A DNA stretch of 64,000 nt from Streptomyces roseirectus (lineage in GTDB: Bacteria; Actinomycetota; Actinomycetes; Streptomycetales; Streptomycetaceae): NCBI RefSeq assembly GCF_014489635.1, contig NZ_CP060828.1, positions 5,326,501 to 5,390,500 on the forward strand, written 5' to 3'. Positions 2,906 to 24,907 of the stretch are shown in pieces; position 1 is the first letter of the stretch; the number at the start of each line of letters is the position of its first letter. Position numbers and translations under genes: made by a program. A model generated the notes under the pieces. It had not been told where the DNA came from and made no database searches. It was given only the letters and a program-made list of their open reading frames with translations.

Positions 2906-4276
2906 TCAGTGGTGGTGGTCGAGGAACACGCGTGCGCGTTCGTCGAGTTCGGCCGCGATCCGTACGCCACGGGCCCGGTACGGGCGTAGGTCGGAGCGCA
3001 GGGAGCGGACGGCTTTGAGGGTGCGGGTGGACTTCACCCCGGCCATGGCGTCGATCGCGCGGCCCCAGGTGATGCACGCTTGCTCGACGCTCCCCTGTTG
3101 CGCCTGCTGCTCGGCCTGGGCGACCAGATCGAGGGCGATGATCCGCGCGTACGTCGTCCCAGGACGGCTCGCCGCCGCGGTGGCGTACTGCCGGGCGGCG
3201 TTCGGGCGGTCGCCGAGCGTCTCGAAGACCTTCGCCGTCCGGGAGTGGACGGTGGCCGCAGGCGGCCCCCACACCAGTGCCCAGAACGGCACCTCGTCCC
3301 CGGCCGCCAGCGCATTCTCGGCAAGTCGGACGTCGGCGAGGGCACGTCGGGTCTGGCCGGTCTTGGCGAGCGCGTGCGCGTGGGTGACGGCGAACAGTGC
3401 CTCGACCTGCTGGCCGACGCGGCCCTTGGCACGGTCCCAGCCCGTCTCGGCGAGGGCCAGGCAGTGCTCGGGCCGGTGCAGTTTCATGCCCTGCTGGGAC
3501 ATCGTGCGCATCACGAAACCGTCCTGCCCGGGAACGCCGGAGGCTCGCGCGAGGGCGAGCGACTGGAAGTAGTACCGCTGAGCTAGTCCTTGCTCCCCAC
3601 TGTCGTACGCCTTCCAGCCACACAGGTGGGCCGCTGCCGAGGCGACGGACAGTGCCTCGGCGCGGACTTCGTCGCTCGCGAACCGGCCCCGGCACAGGTG
3701 CGCGACGTCGGTGATGAGGTACTGCACGAACGCGGAGCGTCCGTGTTGTCCGCCATGGCGCTCGTCCATGTCCATGAAGAGCTTCACCATGTCGCGGACG
3801 GCGACGACGTCGGCGTGGCCGGCGACTCCTCCTCCGCTGACCGCACGGGTCCGGGCGGCGGCTTCCTGGACCGTCTGAAGTGGCATCGTCGCGGCGGCCA
3901 TGGAGTAGGCGGAGGCGGCCAGGAAACGGCGGCGGTTCACGTCGGCCTCCCCGAGTGCGGTGAGCGTTTCGATGGGATCGAAATCCAGCGTCAGCCCGAT
4001 GCTGTCATCTTCGCCACCGGTCGGGGAACCGAGTCCGAGGTCTTCGCGGGTGATCCGGCGGCCCAGACGGCGGGACAGCGCCTCGGCGAGGTAGCCGATG
4101 GTCGGAACGGCCGGGATCGCGCCGAGCGTCCAGTGATGGACAGCCGACTTGTTCGTCCCCAGACGCTGGCCGCTCTCCAACGCCACGGCCTTCACTGCGC
4201 GTGCGACGCCGTCGTACGGCAGCCCGGACTCCTCGATCAGCGCCTTGAGCTGATGGTTCGCAGTGCGCTGAGTCAT
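2906..4276 (-). CDS. Streptomyces TPR-type transcriptional regulator
   Basis: A 456-residue member of a Streptomyces regulator family. An N-terminal HTH-like segment (HQLKALIEESGLPYDGVARAVKAVALESGQRLGTNKSAVHHW) is followed by VNRRRFLAASAYSMAAATMPL, a stretch often mistaken for a Tat signal. A long helical TPR-like region with SLALARASGVPGQDGFVMRTMSQQGMKL follows, then the tail ELDERARVFLDHHH. I chose ATG 4276 over the longer frame to 4354 because GAGGGCAGGAC lies just upstream and the protein then begins MTQRTANHQL, which fits the HTH. A 6-bp-arm palindrome immediately upstream suggests autoregulation. It diverges from the precursor peptide gene. Confidence 0.75.
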   Translation of the reverse strand: MTQRTANHQLKALIEESGLPYDGVARAVKAVALESGQRLGTNKSAVHHWTLGAIPAVPTIGYLAEALSRRLGRRITREDLGLGSPTGGEDDSIGLTLDFDPIETLTALGEADVNRRRFLAASAYSMAAATMPLQTVQEAAARTRAVSGGGVAGHADVVAVRDMVKLFMDMDERHGGQHGRSAFVQYLITDVAHLCRGRFASDEVRAEALSVASAAAHLCGWKAYDSGEQGLAQRYYFQSLALARASGVPGQDGFVMRTMSQQGMKLHRPEHCLALAETGWDRAKGRVGQQVEALFAVTHAHALAKTGQTRRALADVRLAENALAAGDEVPFWALVWGPPAATVHSRTAKVFETLGDRPNAARQYATAAASRPGTTYARIIALDLVAQAEQQAQQGSVEQACITWGRAIDAMAGVKSTRTLKAVRSLRSDLRPYRARGVRIAAELDERARVFLDHHH

Positions 4277-4415: not shown

Positions 4416-4544
4416 ATGAAGGACCAGACGCGTCCGTGGGAGTCCGTGTTCGCCGGACCGGAGATCACCGCCGCGCCGGGTGACACCGCCCGCTACGACG
4501 ACAAGGCCGCCGAGACCTCGGACCAGGGCCGCTTCGAGGACTGA
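4416..4544 (+). CDS. Putative lasso-like RiPP precursor peptide
   Basis: A 42-residue ORF starting MKDQTRPWESVFAG and ending SDQGRFED. AAGGAAGGAG lies just before the ATG. It faces away from the regulator and precedes the macrolactam cyclase and ABC exporter genes. Residues 12-17 (FAGPEI) fit the aromatic-xx-Pro-x-aliphatic motif of lasso leader peptides. A possible core begins at Gly22 (GDTARYDDKAAET), which would close a ring on Asp28 or Asp29 with Lys30 just after it, a layout reminiscent of albusnodin. A canonical leader threonine at -2 is missing, so the core boundary is a guess; a core starting at Ala25 with Glu33 as acceptor is an alternative. No separate RRE or leader protease gene is nearby. 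Confidence 0.55.
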   Translation: MKDQTRPWESVFAGPEITAAPGDTARYDDKAAETSDQGRFED

Positions 4545-4580
4545 GCCACAGCACCGCACATAAGGCACCACCAGAGTCAC

Positions 4581-4617
4581 CGGGGCCCGCGTCTGGCCGA
4601 GAGCCGCGCGGGCCCCG
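4581..4617 (+). terminator. Strong hairpin between precursor and cyclase genes
   Basis: A perfect 11-bp GC stem, CGGGGCCCGCG (4581-4591) with CGCGGGCCCCG (4607-4617), has a 15-nt loop and no T-run. Its place 37 bp after the precursor stop and 32 bp before the cyclase start suits a partial terminator or mRNA 3' stabiliser, letting the peptide be made in excess over the enzyme. Confidence 0.6.
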
Positions 4618-4649
4618 TCGCATGTCCGACGAGAAAGGAGACCAGAAGG

Positions 4650-6227
4650 ATGTTGACGTTATCGGTGAACGTACGGACCGGTTCGGGGCCGTGGGTATGG
4701 CGAGGGGAGGAAGAGGGATGGGGTTGCGGTGCGGACCGTGTCCGGCCCCTGGACCACCCGGCACTGGAGGCGCGGGCGATCACCGACGGCACCCACACGC
4801 TGCTGGTCGTACGAGAGCGCGCCGTCGGCCGCCCCTCGCTGCTGCGATCGATCTCCCCGGCCCGGGTCGATGAGGCGGTGTACGGCCGCGCGCTGAAGGA
4901 GTGCCAGGACTGGCCGCTCCAGAGCATCTGGATCGAGGTCGGCCCGGACGGGCTCCGCCTGACGACGGGGCTCGGCGGGGTGTGCCCGCTGTACCTCGCC
5001 CACGACGCCGGGCGGCTGACGGGCTCGTGGCAGCTGATGGACCTGCGCGCCCACCTCGGCGCGAACTGGCTGGAGGAACGGGAGGTGATGCGGCTGCTGA
5101 CCGGCTTTCCCCGCTACGGGCACGACACACTGTTCACCACCGTCAAGCGACTGTCGGAACGCTCCACTGCCTACGCGGACGCCGAGAGCCTGCGCCTGGT
5201 GTATCCGTCGGCGGCAGAGCACGCCCAGCCCTCCCAACTCGCCGACCACATCGGTGAGTCCGAACTCGTCGCCGCCTTCGAGGCCCTGACGGACCACGTG
5301 TTCGCCAAGAGGCCCGTCGCGGCGGGGCAGACGGCGGCCCAACTGTCCGGGGGCATGGACTCCACCAACCTCGCCATCTCCCTCGCGCTGGCGCACCCGG
5401 GGGTGATCACCCCATGTGCGATGCTCATTGGGGGAGAGGCGGGACCCCAGCAGGAGGCGCGGCGCCGGGCGGTCATCGAGCGGACCGGGTTCGCCGCCGA
5501 CGTGACCGTGCGAGCTGCCGACCACCCGGTGCTCTCCCCCGGCGGACTACGACGCTCCCGGGCGCAGGAGATTAGCCCGCTGGACGAGCCGCATCTGGAG
5601 GCCGCCGACGCGCTCGCCCAGGCCCTGCGAGCCCGAGGCGTCCACACGGTGGCGGCCGGGTTCGGCGGTGACGAGATCGCCCGAACCCGCCGCGCTTCCG
5701 GCGAACCCCCTCGTACGCCTGTCGCACCGTCCTGGTGCGGCGAGCGGGTGTGCGACCTGCTGAGCGAGGTGGACAACGGGATCTCCCCGGCGACCGTGGC
5801 ACCGGAAACCGCGCTGATCGCCCTGGAGGTCGCCACCCCGCTCATGGCCCGGCGCGGACTGTGGACGGTCGCCCCGTTCACCGATGCGGACATGGTCCGC
5901 TTCGGACACCGCCTGCCCGTGGAATGGAAGAAGGACAAGCGTCTGCTGCACCGGCGGCTCGCTGCCCGCGCCCTGCCCGAGGACGTGGTGAACCCGCCGC
6001 TGCGGGAGAACTTCGGCCATCTGATGAACACCGCCGTCCACCGTCATGCGACCGAGCTGCTGCGTGGCTGGGGCAAAGACCTCCACCTCACTGAGCAGGG
6101 CTACCTCGATCCAGCCATGCTCGCCGAGACCATCGAGCGGGCCGCCGTCAGCCCCGAGGACGCTGCTCCGTACCGTACTGGCCTCTACCTCATCACTGCC
6201 GTCGAGTTGGCCCTGCGTGCGCTGTAG
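4650..6227 (+). CDS. Asparagine-synthetase-like macrolactam cyclase
   Basis: A 525-residue ATP-dependent amide-forming enzyme of the asparagine synthetase fold. The N-terminal half is glutaminase-like but has no N-terminal catalytic Cys. The C-terminal half starts with the ATP-pyrophosphatase loop LSGGMDSTN (about residues 231-239) and contains GFGGDEIAR and a PFTDADMVRFGHRLP segment typical of AsnB synthetase domains. Lasso cyclases share this layout and activate an Asp/Glu side chain for ring closure, and the protein resembles the group annotated as albusnodin/ikarugamycin macrolactam cyclases. AAAGGAG lies 9 bp before ATG. Codon 4 is TTA, implying bldA-dependent translation. The exporter gene follows after 75 bp. 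Confidence 0.8.
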   Translation: MLTLSVNVRTGSGPWVWRGEEEGWGCGADRVRPLDHPALEARAITDGTHTLLVVRERAVGRPSLLRSISPARVDEAVYGRALKECQDWPLQSIWIEVGPDGLRLTTGLGGVCPLYLAHDAGRLTGSWQLMDLRAHLGANWLEEREVMRLLTGFPRYGHDTLFTTVKRLSERSTAYADAESLRLVYPSAAEHAQPSQLADHIGESELVAAFEALTDHVFAKRPVAAGQTAAQLSGGMDSTNLAISLALAHPGVITPCAMLIGGEAGPQQEARRRAVIERTGFAADVTVRAADHPVLSPGGLRRSRAQEISPLDEPHLEAADALAQALRARGVHTVAAGFGGDEIARTRRASGEPPRTPVAPSWCGERVCDLLSEVDNGISPATVAPETALIALEVATPLMARRGLWTVAPFTDADMVRFGHRLPVEWKKDKRLLHRRLAARALPEDVVNPPLRENFGHLMNTAVHRHATELLRGWGKDLHLTEQGYLDPAMLAETIERAAVSPEDAAPYRTGLYLITAVELALRAL

Positions 6228-6302
6228 ACGCCTCCTCCACCGGCTGGGCGACTTCGGCGTAATCGGCCCCGTACGCCCCGCAGGTCCCGCAAGGATGGGC
6301 GG

Positions 6303-8183
6303 GTGACCGACTCCTCACCCGCCCCGAAAACTCCCGCCGCACCGGCGCAGCAGGTCGGTTACCGATCCGACCCGCACGCCGAGGACATCGCCAGTGCGAC
6401 CTGGTGGCGGATGGCCTCCCGCCTCCCGCGTACTCTCGGCGCCGCCGTACGGCTCGGCTGGGCAGCCGACCGGCCCGCGATGCTCTGGCTGGGCCTCACC
6501 CAACTCGTCGTAGCCGTCTCCGCCGCTGTCGCCCTTGCCGCGTTGCCCGGCGCGATGAACCACCTCTTCAGCGGTGGGGACGTCGCCGCGCGCGTGACGG
6601 CTGCGACTCCCGCGCTCGTCGTCGCCGCCGTGGCGAGTGCCGTACGGGCGGGGGCGGACGCGCTTGCGGTCTACGCAGCCGCTCGCCTCGCTCCCGAAGT
6701 CGCCACCGAGGCTGACCTCCAGATCCTCGCCGCCGCCCCGCAGGTCGAACTGGAGGCGTACGACCGGCCCGGGTTCACCGACCGCCTCCAGGCCGCAGGC
6801 AAAGGCGCTGAGGCCACCGAGGACCTGATCGGCGACGCGCAGGCCATGGTCTCCGCGCTCGCCCAACTCGTCGCCGCCGCATCGGTGCTGACGGTTCTGC
6901 ACCCGCTGCTCCTCCCGCTGCTTCTGCTGGCCGTGGTGCCGAAGGGCGCCGCAGCGGTGACCACCGCGCGCATCCAGCACCACGCGGACTTCCAGAACAT
7001 CTCCGACAATCACCTGCGTTACCTGCTGCGGTACTACTCCACCGACCGCCGTACCGCCGCCGAGGTCCGCGCCGCCACCATGTCCGGCTTCCTGATGACC
7101 TGGTACCGGGAGATCACCGACCGGATCAAGGCCACTCACCGGGAGGCGGCGCCGCGCGTGCTGCGGGTGACCCTGGTCGGCTCCGCCGTCAGCGGGCTCA
7201 TGCTCGCCGCCACGTGGGCCGCGCTCGGGTGGCTCGCCGCGACCGGACGGATGGACCTCGCGGTCGCCGCGACCGCTGTGGTGGCCGTACGGACGTCGAC
7301 CGGTGCGCTGACCTCGCTGGTGATGGCCGCCGCCCGCACCTTCCGTACCAGCCTCTACCTGGAGGACTGGCAGTCCTTCCTGCGTCACGCGAAGAGCCTG
7401 CGCGCCGAGCGTGGCAACGCGGTGATCCCGGACGAGGCGCCCGTCGAGATCGAGGCGAAGAACGTCACCTACGCCTACCCGGGCGCCGGGTCTCCGGCGG
7501 TGGACGACGTCAGCCTCACCCTGCGCCAGGGCGAACTCATCGCGCTGGTCGGCGAGAACGGCTCCGGGAAGACCACTCTCTCCCGCCTCCTCACCGGCCT
7601 GTACCTGCCCACCTCCGGCACGGTCACCTGGGACGGCACAGACCTCGCCGAGGCCGACCCGACAGGCGTCTGGTCGAAGGTCGGGCTCGTGCCGCAGGAC
7701 TACACCCGCTGGCCCATGGACCTGCGCGCCAACATCCACCTCGGCCAGCCCCGCAGTGACGACGACACCTCGCTGCTCCAGGCCGCGCATGCGGCCGGCG
7801 CGGACGGTGTCATCGACAAGGCTCCGTACGGGCTCGACACCCTGGTCGCCGGCTCCAATTGGGGCGGCACCGACCTGTCCGGCGGACAGTGGCAGCGCAT
7901 CGCGGTCGCCCGCGCGTTCTATCGGGACGCCGCCATGCTGATGCTCGACGAGCCGACGTCCGCGATGGACCCGAGGGCCGAGCACCTGGTGATCCGCCGC
8001 TTCAAGGAACTCGCCGCAGGCAAGGCCGCCGTGTTCGTGACGCACAACCTGGAGAACGCCCGCATCGCGGACCGCGTCGTCGTCCTCGACCACGGCCGGA
8101 TCGTCGAGACGGGGACCTTCGAATCCCTCCTCGAAGCGGCGGGCCTGTTCGCCGAGCTCTACAAACTCGCGCAAGACCGGTGA
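6303..8183 (+). CDS. ABC exporter, fused membrane and ATPase domains
   Basis: A 626-residue half-transporter. The N-terminal half has several hydrophobic membrane segments (for example LWLGLTQLVVAVSAAVALAAL and VLHPLLLPLLLLAVV). The C-terminal ATPase has Walker A GENGSGKTT (about residue 417), Q-loop VPQD, signature LSGGQWQR (about residue 525), Walker B MLMLDEPTS and an H-loop THN. No N-terminal C39 peptidase is present, so it would export but not cleave a leader. In lasso and related clusters such a protein exports the product and gives immunity. It starts GTG, follows the cyclase by 75 bp, and is probably in the same operon. Confidence 0.88.
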   Translation: MTDSSPAPKTPAAPAQQVGYRSDPHAEDIASATWWRMASRLPRTLGAAVRLGWAADRPAMLWLGLTQLVVAVSAAVALAALPGAMNHLFSGGDVAARVTAATPALVVAAVASAVRAGADALAVYAAARLAPEVATEADLQILAAAPQVELEAYDRPGFTDRLQAAGKGAEATEDLIGDAQAMVSALAQLVAAASVLTVLHPLLLPLLLLAVVPKGAAAVTTARIQHHADFQNISDNHLRYLLRYYSTDRRTAAEVRAATMSGFLMTWYREITDRIKATHREAAPRVLRVTLVGSAVSGLMLAATWAALGWLAATGRMDLAVAATAVVAVRTSTGALTSLVMAAARTFRTSLYLEDWQSFLRHAKSLRAERGNAVIPDEAPVEIEAKNVTYAYPGAGSPAVDDVSLTLRQGELIALVGENGSGKTTLSRLLTGLYLPTSGTVTWDGTDLAEADPTGVWSKVGLVPQDYTRWPMDLRANIHLGQPRSDDDTSLLQAAHAAGADGVIDKAPYGLDTLVAGSNWGGTDLSGGQWQRIAVARAFYRDAAMLMLDEPTSAMDPRAEHLVIRRFKELAAGKAAVFVTHNLENARIADRVVVLDHGRIVETGTFESLLEAAGLFAELYKLAQDR

Positions 8184-8330: not shown

Positions 8331-9077
8331 TCACGAAGCGTCCGGCGCCGCCTCCACGCTGTACTCGTAGCCGATGGCCAGCCGGTAGGGCAGGCACCAT
8401 TCGCCGTACTCGATGACTCCTTCGTCGTCCCAGAGGCGGTGGACGCCGGCGAGGATGGGGGAGCCGACGCGGAGTCCGAGGAAGCCTGCTTCGCGTGCGT
8501 CGGCGTCCCGGCCGTGGATGTCGTCGCGTCCTGCTGTCACCTGCCTGCCGGTCGCCTGCTGGATCTTCAGGAGCAGTCCGGGGGAGGAGGTCCGTGAGGT
8601 GGACAGCAACTCGGGTACGGCGGCGGCGAAGTGGGCCGGGTGCCAGGTGACGAAGAGGCCGGTGCGCTGCTGGCCCCGGCCGGTGTGCCACTGGCGGCGG
8701 ACGACCTGGTCGCCGTCGTCGAGGTCGAAGATCTCGGCGACGTACTGGGGCGGTTTGATCAGCTCGGCGGTCGTGACGATCATCGTCTCGCCCTCGGCGA
8801 GCACCGAGCCGGTGCGCAGGACGCGGGTGATGCGGTCGTAGCCGGAGGGGGCGACCTCGGGGGCGTTGGCGACGAAGGTTCCCCGTCGCGAGGTGGTGAT
8901 GTAGCCCTCGACCTGGAGCTGATCGAGGGAACGGCCGAGGGTGGCGACGGACACACCCTCACTCTTGGCGAGTTCCCGCACGGGCGGGAGTTTCTCGCCT
9001 TCCTTGAGGGCGCCGTCGAGGATGCGGCGGCGGATGCGTTCCGCGACTTGCATGTAGGGGTGATTGGCGTCCGGCAT
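8331..9077 (-). CDS. GntR-family regulator with UTRA domain
   Basis: A 248-residue regulator. The N-terminal GntR winged helix (YMQVAERIRRRILDGALKEGEKLPPVRELA, then VSVATLGRSLDQLQVEGYI) is followed by a UTRA ligand domain with ETMIVTTAELIKPP, VVRRQWHTGRGQQRTGLFVTWHP and GVIEYGEWCLPYRLAIGYEY. I prefer ATG 9077 over the frame start at 9107 because GGGAGG lies 4 bp ahead of it. It is convergent with the peptide exporter, and nothing proves that it controls that locus. Confidence 0.85.
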   Translation of the reverse strand: MPDANHPYMQVAERIRRRILDGALKEGEKLPPVRELAKSEGVSVATLGRSLDQLQVEGYITTSRRGTFVANAPEVAPSGYDRITRVLRTGSVLAEGETMIVTTAELIKPPQYVAEIFDLDDGDQVVRRQWHTGRGQQRTGLFVTWHPAHFAAAVPELLSTSRTSSPGLLLKIQQATGRQVTAGRDDIHGRDADAREAGFLGLRVGSPILAGVHRLWDDEGVIEYGEWCLPYRLAIGYEYSVEAAPDAS

Positions 9078-9257
9078 GGCGCCTCCCGTGGTGGTGTCCC
9101 AGGTCACGTTACTTTCTGTCCTAGAGCATGCATCGAACCCCCGCGACGGGCGAACGTCCGGGGGTGTGGCCGACGCTGGTTGGGAGCGCCAACATGCATG
9201 ACCTTGGCCGCTGGGTGTGTTGAGGCCCGGTCCCGTCCTCGCGGAAGGGGTGGCCTG

Positions 9258-11750: not shown

Positions 11751-12218
11751 TTACTTCAACTCCAGCACCCCCACCACCTCGTCCTCCCCCACCATCTCCC
11801 CGTTCTTCCGGAACCCCAGCCCCAGATAGAACCCCTCGGGCCCGTGCTCCCCGAGATGCCAGGTGACGTGGAACTCGGACGTCCCCCGCCGCCGCAACTC
11901 CTCCGCCACGGCCTGGACGGCGAACCGCCCGTACCCCTTGCCCTGTTCGTCCGCGGCGATGTTCAGCCGCCACAGCCCCGAGCGCCGCAGCGACCCCCCG
12001 TCGTCGTGCCAGTCGACGTCGAGGAACGCCATCAGGAACCCGACGACCCGCTCCCCGTCGACGATGACCCGGGGCCAGGCGACGCCGGGATGCACGTACG
12101 CCTCCGCGAGCGACGTCGCCACGGGTGTGACGGCGTACTCCTGCTCCGGCCGGACGGCGACTGCGATCGCGTCCGCGAAGTTGGCCGGTGTGATCTCTTC
12201 AAGTCGAGGCATGGACAT
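11751..12218 (-). CDS. GNAT N-acetyltransferase
   Basis: A 155-residue GNAT acyltransferase. The acetyl-CoA-binding segment reads LWRLNIAADEQGKGYGRFAVQAV, with the Q/R-x-x-G-x-G/A motif as QGKGYG, followed by LGEHGPEGFYLGLGFRKNGE. The fold resembles spermine/spermidine-type acetyltransferases, but the substrate cannot be read from sequence. It is convergent with the rescue factor gene, 27 bp apart. A start at 12212 is equally possible. Confidence 0.85.
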   Translation of the reverse strand: MSMPRLEEITPANFADAIAVAVRPEQEYAVTPVATSLAEAYVHPGVAWPRVIVDGERVVGFLMAFLDVDWHDDGGSLRRSGLWRLNIAADEQGKGYGRFAVQAVAEELRRRGTSEFHVTWHLGEHGPEGFYLGLGFRKNGEMVGEDEVVGVLELK

Positions 12219-24625: not shown

Positions 24626-24744
24626 CTCGCGGTTCGGACGACTATCTCAACTGTCGTGGCCTTCGGTTACAGTCTTGAACAACGCTGGTGACCATCGCAT
24701 GTCGAGGGTCTCCCGCCGACCACCGCGTTCATAACTTCATACCG

Positions 24745-24888
24745 CTCATCCAGAGGGGCAGAGGGATACGGCCCGATGAAGCCCCGGCAACCCTCCAGCC
24801 GGTCTCGTGCGTGATCACGCCGCGAGGCTCCCGGCTAGGGAAGGTGCCAAATCCGTCTCACGGCGAGATGCGTCGTGAGGAAGATGAG
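24745..24888 (+). ncRNA. SAM-I (S-box) riboswitch
   Basis: The leader of the threonine-synthase-like gene carries S-box hallmarks in order: P1 strand CTCATC, GAGGGGCAGAGGGAT, GGCCCGATGAAGCCCCGG followed by CAACC, a long variable P3, AGGGAAGGTGCCAAATCCG (P4 region), and the closing GATGAG (24883-24888). P1 pairs CTCATC with GATGAG. The 3' strand runs directly into AGGAGAAAGGG, so SAM binding probably masks the ribosome binding site; attenuation of transcription is also possible. SAM as ligand implies feedback from methionine metabolism. Confidence 0.88.
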
Positions 24889-24907
24889 GAGAAAGGGCCT
24901 CGCCTCC

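Follow-up and report, generated by a model that had tools for sequence, protein, structure and literature searches.

A compact peptide locus of Streptomyces roseirectus with an AsnB-fold enzyme: a conserved K-x5-D signature and a candidate Lys-Asp macrolactam

This study concerns a small gene set within a 64,000-nucleotide stretch of Streptomyces roseirectus DNA (NZ_CP060828.1, positions 5,326,501 to 5,390,500), hereafter the window, which lies at 5.33 Mb in a single-contig genome of 9.95 Mb with a G+C content of about 70%. The set consists of a small open reading frame (ORF) followed by a gene for an AsnB-fold enzyme and then one for an ABC exporter (Table 1). The ORF has 42 codons, its ATG at position 4416 being preceded by a Shine-Dalgarno-like aaggaaggag. 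An initial annotation had described these three genes as co-directional, that is, a 42-residue ORF with a good ribosome binding site, an AsnB-fold protein without the glutaminase Cys and an exporter, and both the ORFs and the Pfam matches agree with that description. The reading favored here, at a probability of roughly 55%, is that of a compact locus for a ribosomally synthesized and post-translationally modified peptide (RiPP), in which the enzyme would be a macrolactam synthetase joining the side chain of Lys30 of the encoded precursor to Asp36.

Table 1. Features of the locus and its surroundings (window positions).
Feature	Position	Strand	Basis
Precursor peptide gene, 42 aa	4416..4544 (stop included)	+	ORF; 17 database homologues
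Leader-like part W8-P21 (WESVFAGPEITAAP)	4437..4478	+	E9, F12, P21 invariant among 19 window-type sequences
Lys30 codon, proposed nucleophile	4503..4505	+	Kept in 19/19 window-type sequences; K with D at +6 in 50/52 non-redundant loci
Asp36 codon, proposed carboxylate for activation by the enzyme	4521..4523	+	Kept in 19/19 window-type sequences
G+C-rich stem-loop separating precursor and cyclase genes	4580..4618	+	Spacer z = -2.3
AsnB-fold enzyme, 525 aa, ATG start, proposed macrolactam synthetase	4650-6227	+	PF00733 44.1 bits (cut-off 21)
ABC exporter, 626 aa, GTG start	6303-8183	+	ABC_tran 104.1 bits
NsdA-family TPR regulator, divergent	2906..4276	-	NF053720 373.6 bits (cut-off 75)
GntR-type regulator facing the far end of the cluster	8331-9107		Profile match
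GNAT ORF	11751-12218	-	PF00583 31.7 bits; 3.6 kb past exporter

The precursor and its K-x5-D signature

The databases hold 17 further proteins that match the window peptide, at 67-100% identity. Together with the window peptide itself and that of another locus, L003 (L numbers are used here where loci need telling apart), these make up an alignment of 19 sequences, in which M1, E9, F12, P21, K30, D36, Q37 and G38 are invariant. Residue 29 is acidic in all 19 as well, and Gly22 is retained in nine, the other ten having Ser, Ala, Thr, Arg or Glu. Among six close relatives the proportion of nonsynonymous differences (pN) is below that of synonymous differences (pS) in all 15 pairs, the numbers involved being small. 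Going by these sequence comparisons, the window peptide is a real coding gene, beyond what chance would supply. Its leader-like part, W8-P21, would be what the enzyme recognizes.

In relatives further removed, the small ORF ahead of the enzyme gene has little in common with that of the window apart from a Lys that is followed six residues later by an Asp, i.e., K-x5-D. A count that presupposed no motif took every residue pair, at spacings of 1-12, within the C-terminal 30 residues of every ORF segment upstream of the enzyme at 68 loci from Actinomycetota and Pseudomonadota, 52 of which were left after an 80% cut; excluded beforehand were L008, L026, L060, L062, L077, L079, L082, L083, L085 and L087-L090, and L121 came later. 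Lys with Asp at +6 was the top pair, being found on the coding strand at 50 of the 52 non-redundant loci and on the reverse strand at one, and the runner-up by difference, Gly with Asp at +3, was found at 45 forward versus 10 reverse. As to the two misses, L075 does possess K-x5-D, more than 30 residues from its end, and L044, a Dyella locus, has K-x6-D instead.

A second scan, which sought the motif itself, found a signature peptide beside the enzyme at 72 of 78 loci versus 10 of 547 reverse-strand ORF segments serving as control. The 78 include repeats (L077 is the same as L047 and L085 the same as L019, with L082 close to L016 and L087 close to L004), and outside them stand L090 along with L088 and L089, partial contigs in which no peptide was found. 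Missed were L008 and L026, with a truncated or partial enzyme, L060 and L062, where the enzyme was partly matched, L083, which has masked bases, and again L044. Loci gathered after the rule had been fixed conform to it in three of three cases for L074-L076, in the case of L121 (from a viral-contig collection) and in 12 of 15 cases for L077-L091, L083 being masked, L088 and L089 partial, and some of these loci repeating earlier ones. By these counts the loci have what is expected of a RiPP, a genetically encoded precursor that is conserved next to a putative modifying enzyme. Conservation of the peptide next to homologues of the cyclase was also the test that the initial annotation had set for its precursor, cyclase and exporter proposal, which stands up to it.

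Around the signature, the 72 precursors (register set by hand for L005, L032, L045 and L074) are far more variable. The residue preceding the Lys is Lys in 35, Pro in 12, Asp in 6, Arg in 5, Glu in 4, Thr in 4, Met in 3, Ile in 2 and His in 1, that is, acidic in 10, and with this residue so variable no fixed N-terminus is marked. The aromatic-xx-P-x-aliphatic motif of lasso leaders, which had been pointed out in the window peptide, is there as FAGPEI; across the family it is not conserved (15 of 55 actinobacterial and none of 17 proteobacterial precursors). A leader pattern of [LVIMA]F is found in all 55 actinobacterial precursors, though this is a permissive pattern with a chance match in L079. 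That relative, L079, keeps the K-x5-D tail behind a leader part that seems to have been deleted or changed. Another, L045 from Luteimonas, has two distinct K-x5-D peptide ORFs ahead of one enzyme.

The enzyme, its fold and its missing lasso partners

The enzyme starts MLTLSV and so lacks the Cys2 typical of class II glutaminases. Its ATP-pyrophosphatase loop, SGGMDS, is intact, and G234, G235, D237 and S238 are the same in all 57 family rows. As modeled with AlphaFold2 (AF2; mean pLDDT 91), the predicted fold has beta-lactam synthetase as its top Foldseek match in the Protein Data Bank (PDB), and beta-lactam synthetase alone is matched by sequence in the PDB at E <= 0.01; no lasso cyclase is among the PDB matches, which is uninformative on kinship either way. 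At the position matching Tyr 348 of beta-lactam synthetase the family has mostly Leu, Phe, Ile, Thr or Val, the window enzyme having Phe. Beta-lactam and carbapenam synthetases, which have no glutaminase Cys either, perform lactam chemistry on small-molecule substrates. They share with the window enzyme the two-domain fold as well as the ATP-pyrophosphatase loop, and a shared fold proves no function; the neighborhood suggests, for the window enzyme, a peptide rather than a small molecule as substrate. The former glutaminase domain, its Cys having been lost, could act as the precursor-binding part.

Named database matches of the enzyme are mostly from Streptomyces. Against profile models it scores 28.9 bits with TIGR01536 (asparagine synthetase; cut-off 267.1) and 20.2 bits with NF033535 (lasso cyclase; cut-off 525), and with NF033561 (albusnodin/ikarugamycin) it has no match at E <= 1, a six-frame search giving 24.3 bits versus a cut-off of 300. 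A tree of 38 rows was built that included six albusnodin-type cyclases, the triculamin enzyme and six asparagine-synthetase paralogues from the S. roseirectus genome itself, with no McjC-type cyclase; 36 family rows had been picked, 11 of which were removed by a motif filter, and the triculamin enzyme and L005 form long branches. The family is there a branch of its own (support 100/99), apart from the AsnB paralogues and from the albusnodin-type lasso cyclases. The expectation that the cyclase should not group with ordinary asparagine synthetases is borne out relative to those six paralogues, and on this phylogenetic and profile evidence the enzyme is neither of the AsnB clade nor of the lasso cyclase group.

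Lasso clusters are described as having a B or B2 leader peptidase 'in all cases' (PMC8498205). No such gene lies at the window locus, as had been annotated, nor did a profile search find a B2 peptidase in any of 81 loci (1.04 Mb, with flanks of up to 7 kb, or 1.5 kb for L077-L091). The profile was home-made, from 21 frames with flanking sequence, and gave 71.0 bits for the control, the B protein of the lasso cluster (L073) of the same genome; two matches within the loci below E 0.01 were ABC ATPases. The S. roseirectus genome has one B2-type peptidase, which is located in another cluster, and the initial annotation had suggested borrowing of B proteins as one possibility. As a general route this fails: a PF13471 search that was given 53 loci covered 52 genomes or records, of which 17 have no match (11 genomes and six plasmid-only records), these including drafts in which gaps are possible. 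For the RiPP recognition element (RRE, or B1), PF05402 found no match genome-wide, including at the genome's own lasso cluster where one is expected.

That lasso cluster, L073 (C1, 3.681-3.688 Mb), is of the albusnodin type. It has a cyclase (NF033561 217.7 bits, cut-off 300), a B protein (NF033537 55.8 bits), an ABC exporter to which the window exporter is 55% identical over 497 aa, and an NsdA-family regulator. Its two small ORFs end in TL followed by GRQTFNDSDKSNYFEG and in TL followed by GERENGAREADVAYYN, the cut sites after TL being inferred. Albusnodin-type clusters and the window locus therefore have in common an AsnB-fold cyclase, a small precursor, an ABC exporter and an NsdA-family regulator, with a GNAT-like gene found as well in many relatives of the latter. 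The window locus differs in being without a B protein, in the clade of its cyclase and in showing no core start of the T-L/G kind; the pair to be joined in albusnodin-type peptides is an N-terminal Gly plus an Asp or Glu, whereas in the window it would be Lys plus Asp. Nor is the albusnodin-like gene order A-C-B-T (PMC8498205) seen, as the window has neither a B gene nor an adjacent GNAT gene and the relatives with GNAT have no B. The window cyclase and that of L073 share only short BLASTP pieces, and the albusnodin-like reading of the initial annotation is not supported.

Neighboring genes and distribution

The spacer between precursor and enzyme genes folds better than shuffled sequence (z < -2) at 36 of 58 loci tested, out of the 72, each spacer being compared with 60 shuffled versions. 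A partial terminator giving precursor excess is a common RiPP arrangement, and the stem-loop at 4580..4618 is possibly such a terminator. The exporter, given its position, would export the product. The NsdA-type TPR regulator is a candidate regulator or peptide sensor, the receptor role being an idea only. No acetyltransferase gene was found adjoining the window locus, in agreement with the initial annotation; the nearest GNAT ORF is separated from the exporter by four unrelated genes (GntR, DUF6415/HATPase, TerD and RF-1-domain) and falls outside the GNAT cluster that adjoins the enzymes of relatives.

Among relatives, neighbor identities were taken from Pfam or NCBIfam matches of cluster representatives over 63 loci. 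A GNAT-like gene directly follows the enzyme in 34, by matches barely above cut-off. In 24 loci the flanks include an NsdA-type TPR regulator, which in 21 of these is divergent and immediately upstream, and three more loci have there a weakly NsdA-like or related regulator (L031 and L032 by NCBIfam, L048 by clustering). An ABC exporter of the window kind lies behind the enzyme on the same strand in eight loci, 13 loci have an ABC protein of that cluster at some place in their flanks, and an S-adenosylmethionine (SAM)-dependent methyltransferase lies behind the enzyme in five. A PCMT-like (isoaspartate methyltransferase) gene was observed at L016 (9489-10613, 97.7 bits), its cluster occurring in seven loci in inconsistent places. 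These acetyltransferase, methyltransferase or exporter neighbors, which vary by subgroup, hint at products that would be bioactive and self-toxic. As for the locus being a defense system, PADLOC had no match for either enzyme or regulator, and its exporter matches (mad3 at 93.6 bits and others) run through the ATPase part, as is typical of ABC proteins.

The enzyme was found in 13 of 394 genomes of a class sample, S. roseirectus counted, and in a phylum sample around Luteibacter in the center genome alone (1 of 398). Plasmids also carry such loci, i.e., Streptomyces pFRL6 and two others, rhizobial plasmids and a Xanthomonas plasmid. Acyl-homoserine-lactone synthase genes stand close to two of the rhizobial plasmid relatives, L005 and L074, a hint of quorum control. 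Elsewhere in the window, an 88-nt direct repeat (90% identical; 1684-1771 and 2891-2978, 1207 nt apart) represents the 3' end of the NsdA-type regulator gene in two copies, with a NUDIX ORF (2319-2762, PF00293 59.3 bits) between them, and a SAM riboswitch at 24743-24890 (+; 77.7 bits) is the sole Rfam match.

A proposed Lys-Asp ring and its alternatives

Under the favored reading, the AsnB-fold enzyme would bind the 42-residue precursor via the N-terminal part of the latter and adenylate the side chain of Asp36, which the side-chain amine of Lys30 would then attack. The product would be a ring of 26 atoms, K-x5-D, closed by an isopeptide bond between Lys and Asp, and would be trimmed by unlinked proteases and subsequently exported by the ABC transporter, with the divergent NsdA-type regulator controlling the locus and perhaps sensing the peptide. 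By calculation the full peptide has a monoisotopic mass of 4658.1255, or 4640.1149 minus water; trypsin would release YDDK and AAETSDQGR from the linear peptide, and the Lys30-Asp36-bonded YDDKAAETSDQGR minus water would have an [M+H]+ of 1437.624.

With lasso cyclases, an Asp or Glu side chain is adenylated and the freed N-terminus attacks (PMC13352647). A computed 25 atoms for a lasso ring to Asp8 and 26 for one to Glu8 make the K-x5-D ring lasso-sized, such that a lasso-type AsnB-fold pocket could hold it. If the nucleophile instead is a side chain, then no cut of the leader is needed before ring closure, which fits the missing leader peptidase. That is, having no leader peptidase nearby, a variable residue where the new N-terminus would be and a fixed Lys/Asp spacing, the Lys side chain is the simplest nucleophile. 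Several points nevertheless weigh against this. The invariant Lys could serve recognition or activity, or may be an acetylation site where a GNAT-like gene follows the enzyme. At position 452, where AsnB and lasso enzymes have a Lys in common, the family has Arg in 32, Lys in 12, Pro in 12 and Val in 1 of 57 rows, and at 434 it has Arg in 48, His in 5, Trp in 2 and Gln in 2. Triculamin, in addition, is given as cyc(SKKSKPGD)GIRGKGVRG, and its ring is closed from residue 1 despite a K2-x5-D8 spacing identical to that of the family (PMC13192320).

From that last point follows the most serious alternative, which is considered unlikely here though by no means negligible. An unlinked protease would free the residue ahead of the Lys, i.e., Asp29, and that N-terminus would be joined to Asp36, giving an eight-residue lasso-like ring with Lys as residue 2, kept for activity or acetylation. 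Beyond the triculamin core SKKSKPGD, which is also read in its precursor at L120, such a ring would suit the many GNAT-like neighbors and the proteobacterial tails that resemble triculamin, e.g., P-K-x-x-x-P-G-D. Lys acetylation is the means of self-resistance in both triculamin and lariocidin (PMC13352647), and clusters of the lrc type are reported from Alpha- and Gammaproteobacteria in the lariocidin preprint (PMC11451635), clusters that possibly overlap the proteobacterial loci of this study. Lariocidin itself uses B1/B2 (PMC11451635). Against a lasso-like ring, no B2 was found in the 81 loci and none in 11 whole genomes with the locus (drafts, hence not proof). The ring would furthermore have to start with Lys, Pro, Asp, Arg, Glu, Thr, Met, Ile or His depending on the precursor (Pro in 12 of the 72), and no fixed residues mark the site of cleavage.

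Triculamin's own genes differ as well, the likeness amounting to an AsnB-fold cyclase plus, in the triculamin core, K-x5-D spacing. In Streptomyces triculaminicus (L120, about 11960-12118) the core stands directly behind Met, ahead of a C-terminal follower (start inferred, the frame being open upstream), an arrangement in which no leader peptidase would be required to free the N-terminus; in the window family the Lys comes after some 21 residues or more, and the K/D pair is near the C-terminus. The triculamin enzyme frame is some 390 residues from its first Met and is without an N-terminal domain, as compared with a 525-aa enzyme of two domains. Its score with the family profile is 21.5 bits, lower than the 35.7 bits of the albusnodin-type cyclase of the S. 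roseirectus genome. Identity of the two systems was rejected: S. triculaminicus has both, its K-x5-D locus (L022) lying about 0.6 Mb from the L120 genes on one contig. The window and triculamin families are thus distinct, though the chemistry of the former could still be N-terminal.

Less probable again is some other modification of Asp36, whether amidation, aspartimide formation or linkage to a separate amine, with Lys30 a recognition residue. AsnB-fold RiPP enzymes do also amidate or form nitriles, and for amidation the window enzyme has no glutaminase Cys to supply ammonia, though such enzymes accept free ammonia (PMC13060819); a spacing of six kept at 50 of 52 loci suits a ring better than it does recognition. 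That the locus is not of RiPP type at all, the ORF being a regulatory leader or unmodified signal peptide and the enzyme working on a small molecule as does beta-lactam synthetase, has in its favor that synthetase as sole PDB sequence match and a TPR regulator adjoining the peptide. It is nonetheless very improbable, as the K/D pair is retained with the enzyme across phyla while most residues change, and an attenuation leader needs no such pair. Most improbable of all is the lasso peptide of the initial annotation, with its core starting at Gly22, a ring to Asp28/29, Lys30 behind the ring and the B proteins supplied by another part of the genome. A B2-type peptidase does exist elsewhere in S. 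roseirectus, and among window-type peptides an acidic residue 29 is universal and Gly22 occurs in nine; yet another residue replaces Gly22 in the other ten, versus K30 and D36 in all 19, the residue before the Lys is acidic in just 10 of 72 precursors, the leader motif occurs in 15 of 72, and borrowing would be impossible for the 11 genomes without PF13471.

Graspetides (microviridin type) are made by ATP-grasp enzymes, whereas the window enzyme is of the AsnB fold. Side-chain macrolactams in ribosomal peptides are nevertheless what graspetides represent (PMC13097080). AsnB-fold enzymes acting on ribosomal peptides are themselves known, TsrC, ScdTA and PesC (nitrilobacillin) amidating or nitrilating C-termini, with no Lys-Asp pair described for them in the portion of that source drawn on here (PMC13060819). 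The present family has a fair chance of constituting its own class and may be part of the approximately 300 uncharacterized AsnB-like candidates near RiPP genes tallied in that same source (PMC13060819). No description of it was found in searches of an open-access full-text library, subscription papers being largely outside that coverage. The odds are judged to be about even that this is a separate RiPP class, spanning Actinomycetota and Pseudomonadota, in which a single AsnB-fold synthetase, without RRE and without prior leader removal, forms a lasso-sized ring from Lys to Asp through which the tail could thread, both ends being free.

If the Lys-Asp reading is true, then AsnB-fold macrolactam formation would occur at a Lys side chain, and the leader peptidase on which lasso systems depend, perhaps the RRE too, would become dispensable. 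The locus would supply a two-gene test system, along with a natural point of comparison for nucleophile choice in enzymes of this kind. The strict K-x5-D rule, finally, would help in mining genomes for loci on which models of lasso cyclases score far below their cut-offs.

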